Shown piece after piece: positions 44,809-52,370 of a stretch of 64,000 bases of DNA. How positions within the stretch are numbered: the first letter of the stretch is position 1; the number at the start of each line of letters is the position of its first letter. This DNA comes from Armatimonadota bacterium (GTDB lineage Bacteria; Armatimonadota; Fimbriimonadia; Fimbriimonadales; ATM1), in contig QEUM01000015.1 of the NCBI GenBank assembly GCA_003577165.1, positions 1 through 64,000 on the forward strand, given 5' to 3'. Below the pieces are notes generated by a model that was given only the letters and a program-made list of their open reading frames with translations, searched no databases and had not been told where the DNA came from. The translations under genes were made by a program, and so were the position numbers.

Positions 44809-46854
44809 TTACCTCGCGGCGGCTTTGGGCATGCCGTAGCGACACTGCATCGAATCCCACACGAGCACGGCGCTCTTTCCGCCATATGCCAAGCGTGAAG
44901 GCTCGTCCTCGATTTCCATCTGATTCCCGATGATCCCGAAGTCGCTGTCGTAAGCGGCCTGGAACAGGGTCTGTCCCTGCATCCAATCTCCCAATTTGAT
45001 GGGAGTCTTCGGGTTGATCGTGCCGCGTTCGTTGAAGGAGAAGACACCGACGATGGCAACGTAGAGGTTGATCTTCTTGATGTAAGAGTCCGCGACGCCG
45101 CCGACACCGAAAGTGTTCTGCGTTCCCATGTTCTCTTCGAGCCAGCACTTCGGCTCGCCTTCGCCGCTCCATGCGCGAACGATCTTTCCGTTGCTGTCGG
45201 TCTCCTTGCCGGAGGCGTTCCAGGTGCAGGTTGAGCCCGTCGTCGTGTAGACGTTCCAAATCATTTGATCAACGGGGGGGACACCGGGGTCTTCACGGTA
45301 CGACCAGGGGTCGCCGATCATGTTGACTTGAAAGTCGGCGTTGAACGCGAGGCTCTCTTCGCCCGCGATGGTGATGCCGATCTTTCCAGTCCACTTGCTG
45401 AGCCAGCGGGAGTTGCTTGGGCGGCCCTTGTGAAACGCTTTCACCTCGCCGGACGCTCCGAGGTTGTCGTCGGCCAATATGACGACGATCTTCTCCGGCT
45501 CCCACGTTTCGATCACCTGGGCGACGCCCGCGATCTCGACCTTTCTGTTTTGCTCGCCGGGATCCTTGCCGAAGGTGCCGATGAGCTCGATGCGGCGTTG
45601 GTACGCGAGCGGATGAATGAACTTAATCGAAGGCGTGAGGATGCCGAAGTTGTCGCGATTCGGGCGGAATATCGGGCTGGGAGAGCGCTGCTTGCCTTTG
45701 TGCGTGAAGAGGGTTGGCCAGAGCTGCTTCCTCTCCTTGAAGTCGTCGAACAGTTTCACCCAATCGAACGGGCGCTGCGGATAGCCGGACTCCGCAGGCG
45801 GGATGGTGTCGTCGTTCGTTCCCGTGAGTCGGTCGTATAGCAGTTTGATCCACTTGTGGCAGTCGGTATGTCCGAGGTCGCTCATTCCGCAGTAGACGGA
45901 GCAGTTGACCGGGTCCTCTGCCATGACATCGGAGATGCGCGTCGTGGTGCACCCGTAGATGAGGACGAAACTGTTCTTGCTGAACATCCAAAAAGTGCGA
46001 ATGAACTTTCGTGTAATCGTGAACCAGCGCTTGTTGATCTCTTTGTTGTTCGCATCGAGGTCATAGAGGGCCTCGCAAGTACCGAGGAAGCCGCTGCTCA
46101 TGAGACCTCCCGTGAGGCCCGGGATCGCGAGTTCTTCCATGTCGCTCTCCAACTTGGCCGACCACTCTTCACCTGACACGAGGATGTAGTCCTCCACGAA
46201 CTTTTTCTCGGCGGCATCCCAAACCAGCGAGTTGCCCCCGTGGCATTGCATGTAGTACACGCCGAGGCCCTTCAACCCCATGAGGGTCGCGATGGACGCG
46301 TCCGTGCCGGCAGCGACTTTGTATCCCTTGTTGGTGAGAATCCTTCGCACTTCGGGGCAACTGTCTCCGAAGCATTTGCCAAGCGCGTTCGCGATTCGCG
46401 CGTCGAGGCTCTCGGGAAGGTCGTTGGGTTCGAATTGCTGGGGGGCTTGGACAGCGCGGTACGGGGGGGCGAACTCGAGCGGTCGAATGATCCGCTCGGC
46501 CGAAGCGCGAGTACGGAAAGAGTCGAGGAATGCGTCGAGGCTTTGCTCCTTATCCGGAACGGCCGCGACGTTGCCGAGGATCATGTAGGGAACGTCGTCT
46601 TTGAAGACACACGCCACGTTGCCGTCCTCGGTGACATCGGCGAACTTGATCTCTGGGAGGGTCCTCGCGAATGTCACGGTCTGTGCGCGTCGCTGCGCGA
46701 GAGGAAGAGAAGCGAGCGCGAGATACTTGTCGCGAATGGCGTCCATGGCTTTGCCCCGGACCGTAGGGGTGAGGAGCTGCGCGATGGCAGCGCACATCCC
46801 GAGGAGGAGCAAAGCGAGGGCCGATGCCGTTCGGAGGACGCCGTGTCGAGTCAT
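44809..46854 (-). CDS. Large secreted protein with clan-CD-peptidase-like blocks
   Basis: The 681-residue protein starts at ATG 46854 with a signal peptide (residues about 6-26); ATG 46947 would put it behind 31 polar residues. No family is recognised with certainty. Two hydrophobic-strand blocks fit the clan CD (caspase/gingipain/legumain) layout: GVYYMQCH205-GG and SFVLIYGC302-TTT, with the His-Gly then Cys order and about 97 residues between. The C-terminal part (about 400-640) is beta-rich and includes an Ig-like IVVILADDNLGASGEVKAF. It could be a secreted peptidase or an inactive relative. It is divergent from the putative selenoprotein gene, with a 139-bp shared promoter region. Confidence 0.65.
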   Translation of the reverse strand: MTRHGVLRTASALALLLLGMCAAIAQLLTPTVRGKAMDAIRDKYLALASLPLAQRRAQTVTFARTLPEIKFADVTEDGNVACVFKDDVPYMILGNVAAVPDKEQSLDAFLDSFRTRASAERIIRPLEFAPPYRAVQAPQQFEPNDLPESLDARIANALGKCFGDSCPEVRRILTNKGYKVAAGTDASIATLMGLKGLGVYYMQCHGGNSLVWDAAEKKFVEDYILVSGEEWSAKLESDMEELAIPGLTGGLMSSGFLGTCEALYDLDANNKEINKRWFTITRKFIRTFWMFSKNSFVLIYGCTTTRISDVMAEDPVNCSVYCGMSDLGHTDCHKWIKLLYDRLTGTNDDTIPPAESGYPQRPFDWVKLFDDFKERKQLWPTLFTHKGKQRSPSPIFRPNRDNFGILTPSIKFIHPLAYQRRIELIGTFGKDPGEQNRKVEIAGVAQVIETWEPEKIVVILADDNLGASGEVKAFHKGRPSNSRWLSKWTGKIGITIAGEESLAFNADFQVNMIGDPWSYREDPGVPPVDQMIWNVYTTTGSTCTWNASGKETDSNGKIVRAWSGEGEPKCWLEENMGTQNTFGVGGVADSYIKKINLYVAIVGVFSFNERGTINPKTPIKLGDWMQGQTLFQAAYDSDFGIIGNQMEIEDEPSRLAYGGKSAVLVWDSMQCRYGMPKAAAR

Positions 46855-46993
46855 GGTCAAAGGTTCGAGGCTCGGGTGGGGCGTTCCTTCCGTCGGCTCC
46901 AACTCTGCGCCTGAGCGCGGCGCAGCCGACCGCCTACTGCGGGACATAATCGGTGAGGTTCGCCGAAGACGGTCGAATGATGGAGGTCGAGAT

Positions 46994-48037
46994 ATGTTTG
47001 GACGTGCTCTAACAGTCGGTGCAGCAGCCCTGTTGATGGCGGCTGGCGCGCTGCCACAGGTTAAGAGTTACGATGTGTCAGGCGTCATTGTGAATTTGTC
47101 GGGCAAGCCTTCGCCGAAGGCGGAGATCGCACGCTACTTCTTGTTAAGTGATGGCAAGTACACGCCGTACGAGCCGATCACGGCAGACGCGAGCGGGAAG
47201 TTCAGCGGAAAGATTCAGCCCTATCAACTTCCGATGACGTACATCGTGCTCGACGCGGAGCGGAATCTCGGAGCGTGCGTTGACTTCACGGAGGAGTCTG
47301 TCAAGAAGCCGATGCGCATCGTGCTGACCCCTTTGGCGGAAGTACGTTATGGTGTGGAGATCGAGAACGGTTTCAAGCCGTCCGGGATGAACATGTCCAT
47401 CGCGTGCCCCGACACAGGAACCTTGGTGCTGCTCACGTACGACCGGGGGGCGATTCGAATTCCAGCTGGCAAGTACTCGCTCAACTTTTTCAGCATGGAA
47501 TTGAAGATGCATCAGAAGCCGTTTGCCGTTCGGTCGGGGGAGACGGTTGATTTAGGCACTCAGAGGCTCGAACTTACGCCCATCAGCAAGAACATCGGAA
47601 AGCCCGCGTTGCCGATCGACTTTGCCGAAGCGAGAGGCGTGAGTCCGGAGTTCAAACTTTCGGACCTGAAGGGCAAGTGGGTTCTCATCGAGTTCTGGGG
47701 ATACTGGTGAGGGCCTTGCACGCGCGGCAGTTTGCCGCATCTGATTGAGTTCTACAACAAGCATGCCGACTTGCGAAGCAAGTTCGAGATCCTTGCAATT
47801 CATGAAAGTCAGAGTCTGAGGACATTTGCCGAACTAGATGAGAAGAACAAGAAGACGGAAGAGGAAGTGTGGAAGACGAAACTGCCATTTCCGGTTCTCA
47901 TCGACAAAGAAGGGCGAACGGTGGAACGTTACGGCATCTTCGCCTTTCCGACGCTGGTGTTGATCGATCCGGAGGGCAACATCGTGCAGGGCGGAAGCCT
48001 GGAACTCCTCAAGGAGAAGTTGGGGATCAAGGGCTAG
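46994..48037 (+). CDS. TlpA/ResA-like thioredoxin selenoprotein with in-frame TGA (Sec239)
   Basis: The frame runs from ATG 46994 (GGAGG 7 nt upstream) to TAG 48035 with one in-frame TGA at 47708-47710, 348 codons in all. The N-terminus is a signal peptide (1-22), then a carboxypeptidase-regulatory-like beta domain (about 28-190). The TlpA thioredoxin fold spans about 200-347. It reads WVLIEFWGYW-[TGA]-GPC-TRGSLPHLIEFYNKH, then PVLIDKEGRTVERYGIFAFP319-T with the cis-Pro. The TGA therefore takes the first Cys of the W-C-G-P-C redox motif, giving U239-G-P-C242. A hairpin fitting a bacterial SECIS follows. Reading as a broken gene is the alternative. Sec machinery is not in the window. The protein probably acts as a periplasmic thiol-disulfide or selenol reductase. 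Confidence 0.82.
47708..47740 (+). promoter_or_regulatory. Candidate bacterial SECIS element at the in-frame TGA
   Basis: Downstream of TGA 47708-47710 the arms GCGGCA (47724-47729) and TGCCGC (47733-47738) form a perfect 6-bp stem with the three-base loop GTT (47730-47732). The loop begins 19 nt after the TGA, within the 16-37 nt window known for bacterial SECIS. A G in the first two loop positions, as required for SelB binding, is present. Confidence 0.75.
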
Positions 48038-48114: not shown

Positions 48115-49836
48115 TTAGACTCCGAAGGTTCGCGCGATGTCTCGGTTCGTGTGGAAGGAGGCTGACTCGACCGGAGTTTCGTACACGATGAACATGTCCT
48201 TCTTGTTCTTTTCGCACGTTACCCAGCCGTCGTCGATCATGGACTCAAGGGTCGCGAGAGCGTAGTCCATCGTCATCTCGAAGTTCGGATACTTCGGATC
48301 CTCGTAGTACCGTCGTTCGAGCCACTCGAGTGCGGGCACGATGCGGGATTCCGCTTGGAGCATTTCGATGACCATTCCGAACATCCCGTATTTGGGCAGG
48401 ATGGACTCTCCGCGACGGTAGCAAGGTGTGTTGAACACGCGGCCTTCGGAGAAGATCGGGAAGGTGTCTTCGACTGCGCCTTCAAGGTTCAACTTGAAGA
48501 CGTTGTATTCGGCGACCTTCCACGTCGCACGCGTTTGGCTAATGCGGGCAAGTTGGATCTTGACCGCTTGAATCGCGAACCCGCCGAGCATTGGGATGAC
48601 TGGATCGTCGTTGGTGAAGCCACCGGTCGCCATCCATCCGAAGGCAGCGTTCGAACTCATGTCGTGGCCGGATTGCTTTGCGATGTCCCGGCAGTAATCT
48701 ACGAGGTCCGTGAATGCGCCGTTGCTGCTGTACCAAAAGTCGGCGAATTTGATGTGTTGGCCGATTTGTCGTCGCTGCTTCTCCGTGTAAAAAGACTTGA
48801 GCCACTGTCCGTCGTGCGTGCCGCGCATTTCGGCGATGATGGAGTAGGCGACCTGGCGTGCGCCGAACATCGCGAGAGTTAGGCCTGCGGAGAGAATAGG
48901 GTCCGCGAAGCCGCAACTGTCCCCGGCGAGATACCAGTTCTCGCCGGCGAGCCGGTCTGCGATGTAGGACCAGTCGTTGGTTGTTCGGATCTCGCCTTCC
49001 GGCTTCGCGTTGCGAATCAGTTCCGAAATGAGCGGGTCTTGCTTGACGGCCTTCGCGTACAGTTCTTCAGGACGCTGGCCCGACTTTCTGTAATATTCGA
49101 GCGGGCAGACGAGACCGAGACTGGTTTTCGTGGGTGCGATGGGAATGAACCAAAGCCAACCCCAGTCAATGGACATGACGAGGATGCGCGTGCCGCCTAC
49201 TCCGACCTTGATCGCCCAGTCGGCGTTGTCCCAGTAATCCCAAATTGCGATGTTGCGGAGCGCGGTCGGGTATTGGGCCTCGACTCCCATTGCTTTTCTG
49301 AGAATGCTGGAGACTCCCGAGGCGTCGACGTAACACTTCGCAGTAATCTTTTCGCCGGACTCGAGGACGAGGGCGTCGACGCGGTCGCCGGTGGACTCGA
49401 TTTTCAGCACCTTCGTTTCCTCTCGGACATCGCAGCCGAGTTCGGCTGCGTGATCGAGGAGGATTTCATCGAAGATGGGACGGTACACCTGCCATGCGGT
49501 GTGGACACGCTGGCCATCGAACTTTCCAGGGCGATCGGTTTCATGGAAGTGTTGGATCGGGATGAACTCGAAGTCCCACAGGTCCTTCTTCTTGCCCCAG
49601 CGGTACGTTGCGCCGATCTTCAGCGGAAAGTCGGCCGCTTCGATCTTGTCCCATGCGCCCATCTCATGAATGACTTGCGGGACGATCGGCAGCAGACTTT
49701 CGCCAATGTGGTCGCGCGGGAACTTCTCGCGCTCCAGGATCACCACGCTCATCTCGGGAGCGTATTTCTTAAGAAGGGCGCCGCAACAACTGCCTGCAGG
49801 CCCACCGCCGATGATAGCGACGTCGAACGATTCCAT
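48115..49836 (-). CDS. Flavin-dependent halogenase-like FAD oxidoreductase
   Basis: The 573-residue protein begins with the FAD Rossmann motif DVAIIGGGPAGSCCGALL and the KFPRDHIGESLLP segment typical of halogenases and geranylgeranyl reductases. The halogenase signature WxWxIP is present as W-L-W-F-I-P (in SIDWGWLWFIPIAPT). The second FAD motif is AGDSCGFADPILSAGLTLAM. The last 200 residues (from about 370) are not typical of tryptophan halogenases. Substrate and true activity (halogenation, hydroxylation or reduction) are unknown. No natural-product cluster is seen. It converges with the selenoprotein gene. Confidence 0.82.
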   Translation of the reverse strand: MESFDVAIIGGGPAGSCCGALLKKYAPEMSVVILEREKFPRDHIGESLLPIVPQVIHEMGAWDKIEAADFPLKIGATYRWGKKKDLWDFEFIPIQHFHETDRPGKFDGQRVHTAWQVYRPIFDEILLDHAAELGCDVREETKVLKIESTGDRVDALVLESGEKITAKCYVDASGVSSILRKAMGVEAQYPTALRNIAIWDYWDNADWAIKVGVGGTRILVMSIDWGWLWFIPIAPTKTSLGLVCPLEYYRKSGQRPEELYAKAVKQDPLISELIRNAKPEGEIRTTNDWSYIADRLAGENWYLAGDSCGFADPILSAGLTLAMFGARQVAYSIIAEMRGTHDGQWLKSFYTEKQRRQIGQHIKFADFWYSSNGAFTDLVDYCRDIAKQSGHDMSSNAAFGWMATGGFTNDDPVIPMLGGFAIQAVKIQLARISQTRATWKVAEYNVFKLNLEGAVEDTFPIFSEGRVFNTPCYRRGESILPKYGMFGMVIEMLQAESRIVPALEWLERRYYEDPKYPNFEMTMDYALATLESMIDDGWVTCEKNKKDMFIVYETPVESASFHTNRDIARTFGV

Positions 49837-49950: not shown

Positions 49951-52239
49951 TCACCGGCCCCACGGGCTGCCAGCCGGGCGGCAGAAGACGCCCATGGCGC
50001 CTGACTCGGTGGTGAGGTCGAGGTCGAGCATCATCTCGCCCACGCCTGGCAGGTCCACCCAGACGTGCTCTTTCAGGAAGCACCGACGCAACGGGCCCGC
50101 GGTGTCGAGTGGCACGTCGCCCACGTGCACGATGCCGCGCGCATCCGGGCTCAGAAGCGTGAGGGGAACGGTGGCTCGGTTCGCGCCGGTGAGCAGAAGC
50201 GCGGCGTAGCCTTCGAGAACGATGGACTCGTCGGCTCCTCCGGGCCTGAACGCGGGCGGTTCGCTGCCTACTCGTTCGAGGTCTCGCATCTCTTCGAGTA
50301 GGCCCAAGTCGTACACGCTGATGTAGTTCTCGAAAGTGTTGGTGACGTAGGCGTAGTAGGAGACCTTGCGCGAGTCCTTCATGTACTTTTTGCCGAACGC
50401 AACTCCATGCGAGCCGAGGCCCGCGGGGAAGTTGTAGATGCCCGTCGGCTGGCCGTTCTCGTCGAGAGGCAAGATCGTGACGTTGAAGGATGCTTTGTTG
50501 CAGATGACGAGATAGCGCCCGTGCTCTGTCGCATCGGGGGGGGTGACGATGCACTGAATGGGCATCCGGACCCAGCGCACCGGGTCTGCAGTCTCATCGC
50601 GGAGCTCGAAGTTGCCCATGGCGTTTCGGAACGCTTCCGGCGCGGCGACGCGGGTGAGAGTGTTGTTGTTCGCGTTGGCGAAGAAGATGCTGATGTCGGA
50701 CGTGATGGCGTTGTTGCTGAATACCGTCCACGTGCGGCTGTTGACGTTGCCGGTATTCATCACGGAGACGGCGAGCGGCGCCCGGCCGCCGGTCGGCGTC
50801 TGAGCGACTTCGCATCCAGTGCCCTGTCTTCCTTGTCGATCCGACCACGTGTCGCTTGCGGAGTACATGGAGATGGAGTTGCCGAGGGTGTTCGCGGTGA
50901 ACAAGTGATCTCCGTCGTCGGCGAACCAGATTCCGTGAGGCGAGATGCCGGGCCGGCCCTTCTGGCCTTGCGACTGAGAGATCGGCGGGAGCGCGGGCGC
51001 GCCTGCGCGCAGGTCGAGCAGGGGCCGCACCTCCTGCACTTTGTTGCTTCCCATGAGGGTCACGAAGAAGCGGTCTGCCTTCGTGTTCGCGTCGGGGCGG
51101 CGTGGCGCGGTGATGACGTGTGCGGGCGCGGCTCCAATCGGGAAGGATCCGAGGATCGTCTTTGCGTTTGCATCCACTACGGTCACGCCGACGTCATGCC
51201 AACTTGCGAATAGGGCGACCTCGCGGTGTGTGCCGTTCGTGTCGATCGCTCGACCGTACCATCCGTTGTGCGGGTTGTTTCCGACGTTCGGTATGAGCAC
51301 TCGCGACCAGTCGCTTGCGCGAATCACGTTCACGGCGCCATCCTGACCGGATGGATTTTGGTAGGTTTGCAGTCCCACCCAGACCTCGCCCATCCCAGGA
51401 GAAGCCGGAGGCGGGATGGGCGTTTTCGAGGCCCAGGTGAGTGGCAATGGATCAGTTCCCGGAGTGACGATCTCGACCTGCATGTAAGGGTGGAGCTTGC
51501 AGAAGTACTTAAATGCCCCGTTTAGAAGGTCTTGAATCTCCAGGTAGTAGTAGCCGACATCTTGGCCGGGGATGTTCAGAGCGTTGCCGATGAAGCCTGT
51601 GTCAACTCCTTCGACTGTGTTGGAAACCGTGTGCCAGGTCTTGCCGACATTGACGACTTTGATGTATTCGCCCGGTGACAGAACTACGCGTCGCGGGTCG
51701 CTGAACGGATCTCGATTGTCGGTTCCGTCGTCTATGAACCACGGCGATTCGTCGCGGATTTCGAGCCGAATCTCTCTTCCTGCGGGTTTGTCGGGTGGGG
51801 GGACTCCGTTTGTGGGGTCGCTTTCGCCGAGCGGCGCGGCGTAGATCATCCAGAGGAGGAGGGCGTCGAGTTCGGCGTCTGAGATTTCGTTCAGGCCGAA
51901 TGCAGGCATCGCGTTCGTGAACCCCGTGCCGGGCCTCCACTTGCCGTTGCGGACCGCGAACTTGTAATTCTCTTCGAGACTGTAGTTGCGAGACCCGAAA
52001 CCCCGCGCAATGCGAGGCGCGATTCGAGAGGGCATCGTCCAACTGGGGTGGCCTCCGAGACCGTTTGCGCCGTGGCAGGTCGCGCAGGAGGCGGCGAAGA
52101 TCTTCGCGGGGGGCCTCAGCGAATCGGACGCGCCGGCTGAAGAGCCGTCCGCGCGATTCCGCAGGAGCGCTGGAGAGATGGCGAGGGCGAGGATTCCTCC
52201 GGCGAGGAGTGATGTGGCGCGAAAGCGTTTGGAGAGCAT
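49951..52239 (-). CDS. Secreted cytochrome c - cupredoxin - beta-propeller protein
   Basis: The 762-residue protein starts at ATG 52239 (GGAGG 6 nt upstream) with a signal peptide. A small cytochrome c domain follows (about 30-130), with C-A-T-C-H heme binding and MPAFGLNEISDAELDALLLW providing the Met ligand. Next is a cupredoxin-like domain (about 140-260) with a type-1 copper set: H in KTWHTVSN and C-K-L-H-P-Y-M. The rest (about 280-760) forms repeated WD/YVTN-like propeller blades. It likely carries electrons in the periplasm, perhaps as a copper oxidoreductase or sensor. It is divergent from an Fe-S membrane protein across a perfect palindrome. Confidence 0.83.
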   Translation of the reverse strand: MLSKRFRATSLLAGGILALAISPALLRNRADGSSAGASDSLRPPAKIFAASCATCHGANGLGGHPSWTMPSRIAPRIARGFGSRNYSLEENYKFAVRNGKWRPGTGFTNAMPAFGLNEISDAELDALLLWMIYAAPLGESDPTNGVPPPDKPAGREIRLEIRDESPWFIDDGTDNRDPFSDPRRVVLSPGEYIKVVNVGKTWHTVSNTVEGVDTGFIGNALNIPGQDVGYYYLEIQDLLNGAFKYFCKLHPYMQVEIVTPGTDPLPLTWASKTPIPPPASPGMGEVWVGLQTYQNPSGQDGAVNVIRASDWSRVLIPNVGNNPHNGWYGRAIDTNGTHREVALFASWHDVGVTVVDANAKTILGSFPIGAAPAHVITAPRRPDANTKADRFFVTLMGSNKVQEVRPLLDLRAGAPALPPISQSQGQKGRPGISPHGIWFADDGDHLFTANTLGNSISMYSASDTWSDRQGRQGTGCEVAQTPTGGRAPLAVSVMNTGNVNSRTWTVFSNNAITSDISIFFANANNNTLTRVAAPEAFRNAMGNFELRDETADPVRWVRMPIQCIVTPPDATEHGRYLVICNKASFNVTILPLDENGQPTGIYNFPAGLGSHGVAFGKKYMKDSRKVSYYAYVTNTFENYISVYDLGLLEEMRDLERVGSEPPAFRPGGADESIVLEGYAALLLTGANRATVPLTLLSPDARGIVHVGDVPLDTAGPLRRCFLKEHVWVDLPGVGEMMLDLDLTTESGAMGVFCRPAGSPWGR

Positions 52240-52284
52240 GACCGACCTCCGTCGCCCCGATTGTCCTTGAGGATAACCGGTATC

Positions 52285-52306
52285 GCGTATGACCACGGTC
52301 ATACGC
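52285..52306. promoter_or_regulatory. Perfect 22-bp palindrome, probable operator
   Basis: The arms GCGTATGACC (52285-52294) and GGTCATACGC (52297-52306) are separated by AC. It lies in the 131-bp space between the divergent starts at 52239 and 52371, so a dimeric regulator bound here could control both genes. The half-site TGACC...GGTCA does not match FNR (TTGAT) and I cannot name the factor. Confidence 0.7.
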
Positions 52307-52370
52307 TCCGTACGGGGTTTCTTCATAGACTGTATCGGTTAGCGCGACTTAGGAATCGCGGCCCGAAGTG

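Follow-up and report, generated by a model that had tools for sequence, protein, structure and literature searches.

A TlpA/ResA-type redoxin gene of an Armatimonadota bacterium very probably encodes selenocysteine in its catalytic motif

A gene for a TlpA-like protein in an Armatimonadota bacterium carries an in-frame TGA at the position of its first redox residue, which raises the question of whether this codon ends translation or is read as selenocysteine (Sec). The gene lies on the forward strand at positions 46994..48037 of the 64,000-nucleotide stretch of contig QEUM01000015.1 that was analysed as a whole (hereafter, the window). A ribosome binding site read from the sequence, GGAGGT (46982..46987, same strand), is situated 6 nt upstream of the ATG at 46994, and the gene is complete to a TAG at 48035-48037, giving a product of 347 residues including Sec239; full-length homologs that also bear the TGA span this same frame. 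The TGA (47708..47710) is codon 239, the sole in-frame TGA of 46994-48037, and its context is EFWGYW-U-GPC. It encodes residue 1 of the U-G-P-C motif and aligns with Cys in one set of homologs and with TGA in two others (G093 and G105). The resolving residue of the motif, Cys242, is encoded by the TGC at 47717..47719, as assigned from the sequence and the homolog alignment. The original prediction had placed the TGA at codon 239 within W-[TGA]-G-P-C, and all of its coordinates were confirmed on the sequence.

Coding continues without interruption for the 108 codons from the TGA to the TAG at 48035, as had also been proposed, with both the frame and the native codon usage kept. GC3 is 0.72 on the 5′ side of the TGA and 0.69 on the 3′ side, and the codon log-odds in this frame are +0.29 before the TGA and +0.36 after it, with negative values for the other two forward frames. 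The gene seems to be solitary: the frames regarded as its neighbours (44809-46947 and 48115-49836) lie on the opposite strand. A protein with a cytochrome c domain is encoded at 49951-52326. The frame at 44809-46947 (reverse strand), which is divergent from the selenoprotein gene, comprises 712 residues and has no Pfam match.

The predicted protein opens with a probable export signal peptide (residues 1-21; 46994..47056), judged by eye from one Arg followed by a hydrophobic stretch; these residues are disordered in the structure model (pLDDT under 50), and the protein is probably exported. Two N-terminal beta-sandwich domains follow (residues 22-195; 47057..47578; mean pLDDT 91.6). An added beta domain had been predicted correctly, and the model and domain matches define two of them. 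The first is similar to transthyretin-like/CarboxypepD_reg structures, with a best Z of 10.7 (9hfj) and values of 9.2-9.4 for 5aq0 and 3e8v, and the Pfam family CarboxypepD_reg is matched in 4 of 8 family members. The second is similar to Ig/CnaB-like structures at Z of about 8-9 (best 8.7), close to values at which a match may reflect no more than a shared arrangement. Residues 196-347 (47579..48034) form a TlpA/ResA-type redoxin domain with a thioredoxin fold, as assigned from Pfam (AhpC-TSA, 4.7e-16) and from structure matches, and a phmmer comparison with ResA gives an E value of 1.2e-14. Among the matches listed, the closest to residues about 200-345 are ResA/Etrx2-type structures (Z 13-15). 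The domain contains a redox pair spaced by two residues, together with Pro319 (47948..47950) in the segment FAFPTLV, located by sequence and alignment, which we take to be the cis-Pro of the thioredoxin fold. No solved structure of the whole architecture was found among the matches listed in the fold search.

Reading UGA as Sec calls for a dedicated apparatus, and the original prediction hinged on its presence. The host genome of the window (2.75 Mb in 23 contigs, 97% complete) encodes the complete bacterial kit. SelA (contig C22, 182797-184104; 491 bits), SelD (C18, 275940-276878; 355 bits) and a tRNA-Sec with a UCA anticodon (C17, 31693-31783) all score over the curated cut-offs, and SelB (C1, 96692-98527; 376 bits) is likewise over its cut-off. 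A search for selA, selB, selC and selD thus detects every component, and the case of a genome without Sec machinery does not apply. SelD (L056) is itself a selenoprotein: its gene has an in-frame TGA, in the context MVDCAG-U-ASKL, and after this TGA an 8-bp hairpin whose GGU loop is 32 nt downstream.

Homologs were sought with a profile built from four full-length sequences, which was searched in 113 genomes of the class. The full architecture occurs in 7 of the 113, and in three of these seven (the window genome, G093 and G105) a TGA occupies the catalytic position. G093 and G105 belong to genus g44 of family f4, a different family of the order, and their proteins are 40-44% identical to the window protein over the full length. 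The site reads EFWGFW-U-GPCTRGSLPKL in these two and EFWGYW-U-GPCTRGSLPHL in the window protein, with WUGPCTRGSLP identical in all three. The remaining full-architecture genomes of the class (G017, G023, G035 and G061) carry Cys forms, as do G121 and G135, which come from two families further away in the phylum. The alignment of homologs that had been suggested as a check therefore places Cys at the position of codon 239 in these proteins and TGA in two of the nearest full-length relatives. Because three full-length homologs have a TGA where the catalytic Cys is expected and the Sec machinery is complete, the coincidence is well beyond chance, and the UGA at codon 239 is very probably read as selenocysteine in the catalytic motif.

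Downstream of the motif, the sequence can form a putative bacterial SECIS hairpin, GCGGCA-GUU-UGCCGC (47724..47738, forward strand), with 6 bp, a 3-nt GUU loop and a free energy of -8.7 kcal/mol. It begins 13 nt 3′ of the TGA with its loop at a spacing of 19 nt, and is present exactly as first described, including the size, distance and loop G held to be typical of bacterial SECIS elements. The published bacterial model specifies a loop of 3-9 nt with G in the first two positions, a stem of 4-16 bp, a spacing of 16-37 nt and an MFE of -7.5 or lower; the hairpin satisfies the loop, stem, spacing and MFE terms alike. Both Sec homologs have a counterpart in the corresponding position, CGGCA-GTC-TGCCG, with 5 bp and the same distance from the TGA as in the window gene; at -5.3 kcal/mol it misses the -7.5 cut-off but agrees with the other three terms. 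We rejected the hairpin as stand-alone proof of Sec. The same model is passed by 213 of 6860 random in-frame positions of the window (3.1%), and 2.4% of synonymous recodings match the pairing score of the hairpin, so that by itself it is modest to weak evidence. The overall stability of the 71-nt stretch around it is not unusual (z = +1.15), and an Rfam search at the hairpin gave no match in a library that possibly has no fitting model for bacterial SECIS elements.

Codon conservation next to the TGA is also consistent with a signal in the RNA. Among residues identical in all three Sec forms, the codons are identical in 6 of 9 cases right after the TGA and in 26 of 101 elsewhere (Fisher p = 0.017), as would be expected for an RNA-level constraint, although the codons involved are few (9). 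The Sec forms also have one additional residue after U-G-P-C (TRGSLP, where the sister Cys clade has xx-xxP). The idea that this insertion makes room for the SECIS was rejected because the Cys forms G135 (CPPCVQKSLP) and G121 (CIPCVTGGIP) and a paralog in G093 share the spacing.

Several other explanations of the TGA were weighed against this evidence. A single base separates TGA from both TGC and TGT, and the assembly consists of 23 contigs; a sequencing or assembly error could in principle disguise an ordinary Cys-form TlpA-like protein. Such an error is highly improbable: in two separate assemblies the full-length homologs carry TGA at this codon as well, the genome encodes all of the Sec machinery, with a SelD gene that likewise contains an in-frame TGA, and a SECIS-type hairpin is at the expected place. 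Alternatively, the TGA could be a real stop in a pseudogene or truncated gene, from which only the 238-residue part with the beta domains is made. Standard gene calling does stop at the TGA (ORF 46601..47710), and a hairpin may arise by chance. We give this scenario very little credence, as the 108 codons after the TGA retain native usage and frame with no further stop or frameshift, a full conserved redoxin fold is encoded 3′ of the TGA, and two other genomes keep the same codon. A third route to a full-length protein would be readthrough of UGA with another amino acid, either by near-cognate suppression (for example with Trp) or as programmed readthrough. It seems most unlikely in a genome in which tRNA-Sec, SelA, SelB and SelD are all present, and with the TGA falling where homologs have Cys.

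We favour, with a probability of roughly 0.87, a true selenoprotein that is exported and consists of two beta domains and a Sec-Gly-Pro-Cys TlpA/ResA-type domain, which would attack disulfides and be re-reduced by DsbD. The original prediction of a real selenoprotein is thus supported by the complete Sec machinery and by the conservation of the TGA in two full-length homologs. The gene is hidden from standard annotation, which would truncate its product. The known mechanism of Sec insertion is unchanged by the finding.

The architecture also suggests a model for the function of the selenoprotein. UGA codon 239 would be decoded by SelB with Sec-tRNA(Sec), guided by the downstream hairpin, a step for which the computational support is strong; the full-length 347-residue product would then be made and exported. 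Judging from the fold and the motif, the Sec239 selenolate may attack a disulfide or a similar oxidised sulfur group of an extracytoplasmic substrate, and Cys242 may resolve the mixed selenenyl-sulfide. The enzyme would be re-reduced, most likely by a DsbD-type membrane electron carrier. A DsbD is encoded in the genome, with N-terminal, transmembrane and thioredoxin parts, and from its presence it is a plausible electron source. The beta domains probably serve in surface anchoring or substrate positioning, and may bind substrate. The most likely identity of the protein is that of an exported thiol-disulfide oxidoreductase, and we infer that it acts in the direction of a reductase, not an oxidase or isomerase.

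A different activity for the same selenoprotein would be that of a peroxidase or peroxiredoxin-like enzyme that directs its selenol at peroxides and does not work as a disulfide reductase. In keeping with such a role, the top Pfam score is to AhpC-TSA, and peroxiredoxins appear further down the fold list at Z of about 12-13. The active site of peroxiredoxins is PxxxTxxC or PxxxTxxU. Neither form is found at the site here, which reads EFWGYWUGPC, and this absence lowers the likelihood of a peroxidase role. The UGPC motif is instead as in CxxC oxidoreductases, and the closest structures among the matches listed are oxidoreductases of the ResA/Etrx2 type. On balance a peroxidase is unlikely.

The protein was compared with four groups of known systems. 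UxxC selenoproteins of the Thiol-disulfide isomerase-like (cd02966) kind and of the Redoxin family (PF08534) are catalogued in a 2026 review (PMC13188914, Table 1). Like the window protein, these entries have a thioredoxin-fold TlpA/redoxin domain with Sec first in UxxC, and they were predicted from Cys/Sec pairs. The table gives domain and motif only and does not mention two N-terminal beta domains, so the comparison is one of descriptions and the window protein may equal an entry. NCBIfam NF041054, a ResA-like selenoprotein with the motif WAxxUGC, shares with the window protein the ResA-like domain and an active-site Sec; the motif of the window protein is WxxWUGPC, its additional domains precede the redoxin domain, and it scores 33 bits against the NF041054 cut-off of 300. 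No NCBIfam model scores above its cut-off on the window protein. The ResA/Etrx/TlpA oxidoreductases (for example 4nmu, 1st9, 2yp6 and 1jfu) have the same fold as residues about 200-345, but contain Cys-x-x-Cys and are without the two beta domains. The Cys-form homologs (G017, G023, G035, G061, G121 and G135), in contrast, match the window protein over its whole length, beta domains included, and differ in that UGPC is replaced by CGPC, CAPC, CKPC, CQPC, CIPC or CPPC. Open-licence papers yielded nothing on UGPC selenoproteins, on this architecture or on selenoproteins of Armatimonadota.

The claim of a new or rarely described TlpA-type selenoprotein thus stands only in part. Because UxxC proteins of the cd02966 and redoxin kinds are already in PMC13188914, the principle is known, and any novelty would lie in the subfamily and its architecture. 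We consider the chances about even that these proteins constitute an undescribed subfamily of UGPC oxidoreductases that are exported and carry two N-terminal domains of the transthyretin/Ig-like type, as one of several Sec-using TlpA-like lines in a Sec-rich order with repeated Sec/Cys exchange. Searches of viral contigs returned no matches to the gene, those of plasmids returned redoxin-domain matches only, none with 80% coverage, and a search of genome contigs returned redoxin-domain relatives and no full-length homolog.

In a tree of the redoxin domain, the window gene, G093, G105 and the G093 paralog form one clade (100/97), which is sister to a Cys clade (joint group 99/93). Overall, this tree requires several Sec/Cys changes, at least four judging by well-supported branches; the full-length tree is compatible with one Sec origin or more than one for the three Sec forms. 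The G093 paralog adjoins the Sec form (L197, 3391-4539) and has SGMS for UGPC, and therefore lacks both redox residues, with the remainder of the fold kept.

The distribution of SelA was compared with these forms. SelA occurs in 60 of the 113 genomes of the class and in 3/3 Sec-form genomes; it is absent from three of the four Cys-form genomes of the sister clade (G017, G023 and G061) and present in the fourth (G035). With Cys and Sec forms in related genomes that lack or possess SelA, the family offers a natural test of the benefit of selenium in extracytoplasmic disulfide chemistry. Other TlpA-like proteins have a TGA at the same position in the genomes G002, G004, G005, G006, G007, G019, G037, G045, G060, G047 and G051, all of which encode SelA except G007, a 73% complete genome. 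The finding thereby points to a lineage with many TlpA-like redox proteins that use selenocysteine. In the other TlpA-like Sec lines of the order (L088-L098, L040 and L045), the TGA is at the first redox Cys, in motifs such as WUGPC, WUSSC and HUGAC. In part of these lines a hairpin agrees, or almost agrees, with the SECIS model; L088, L089, L090, L094, L096 and L098 have no hairpin that fits the model, and their SECIS may be arranged differently. Three of the lines, L097 (G019), L040 (G051) and L045 (G047), contain a tandem pair of TlpA-like genes in which a Cys form (WCPYC) lies beside a TGA form (WUSSC).
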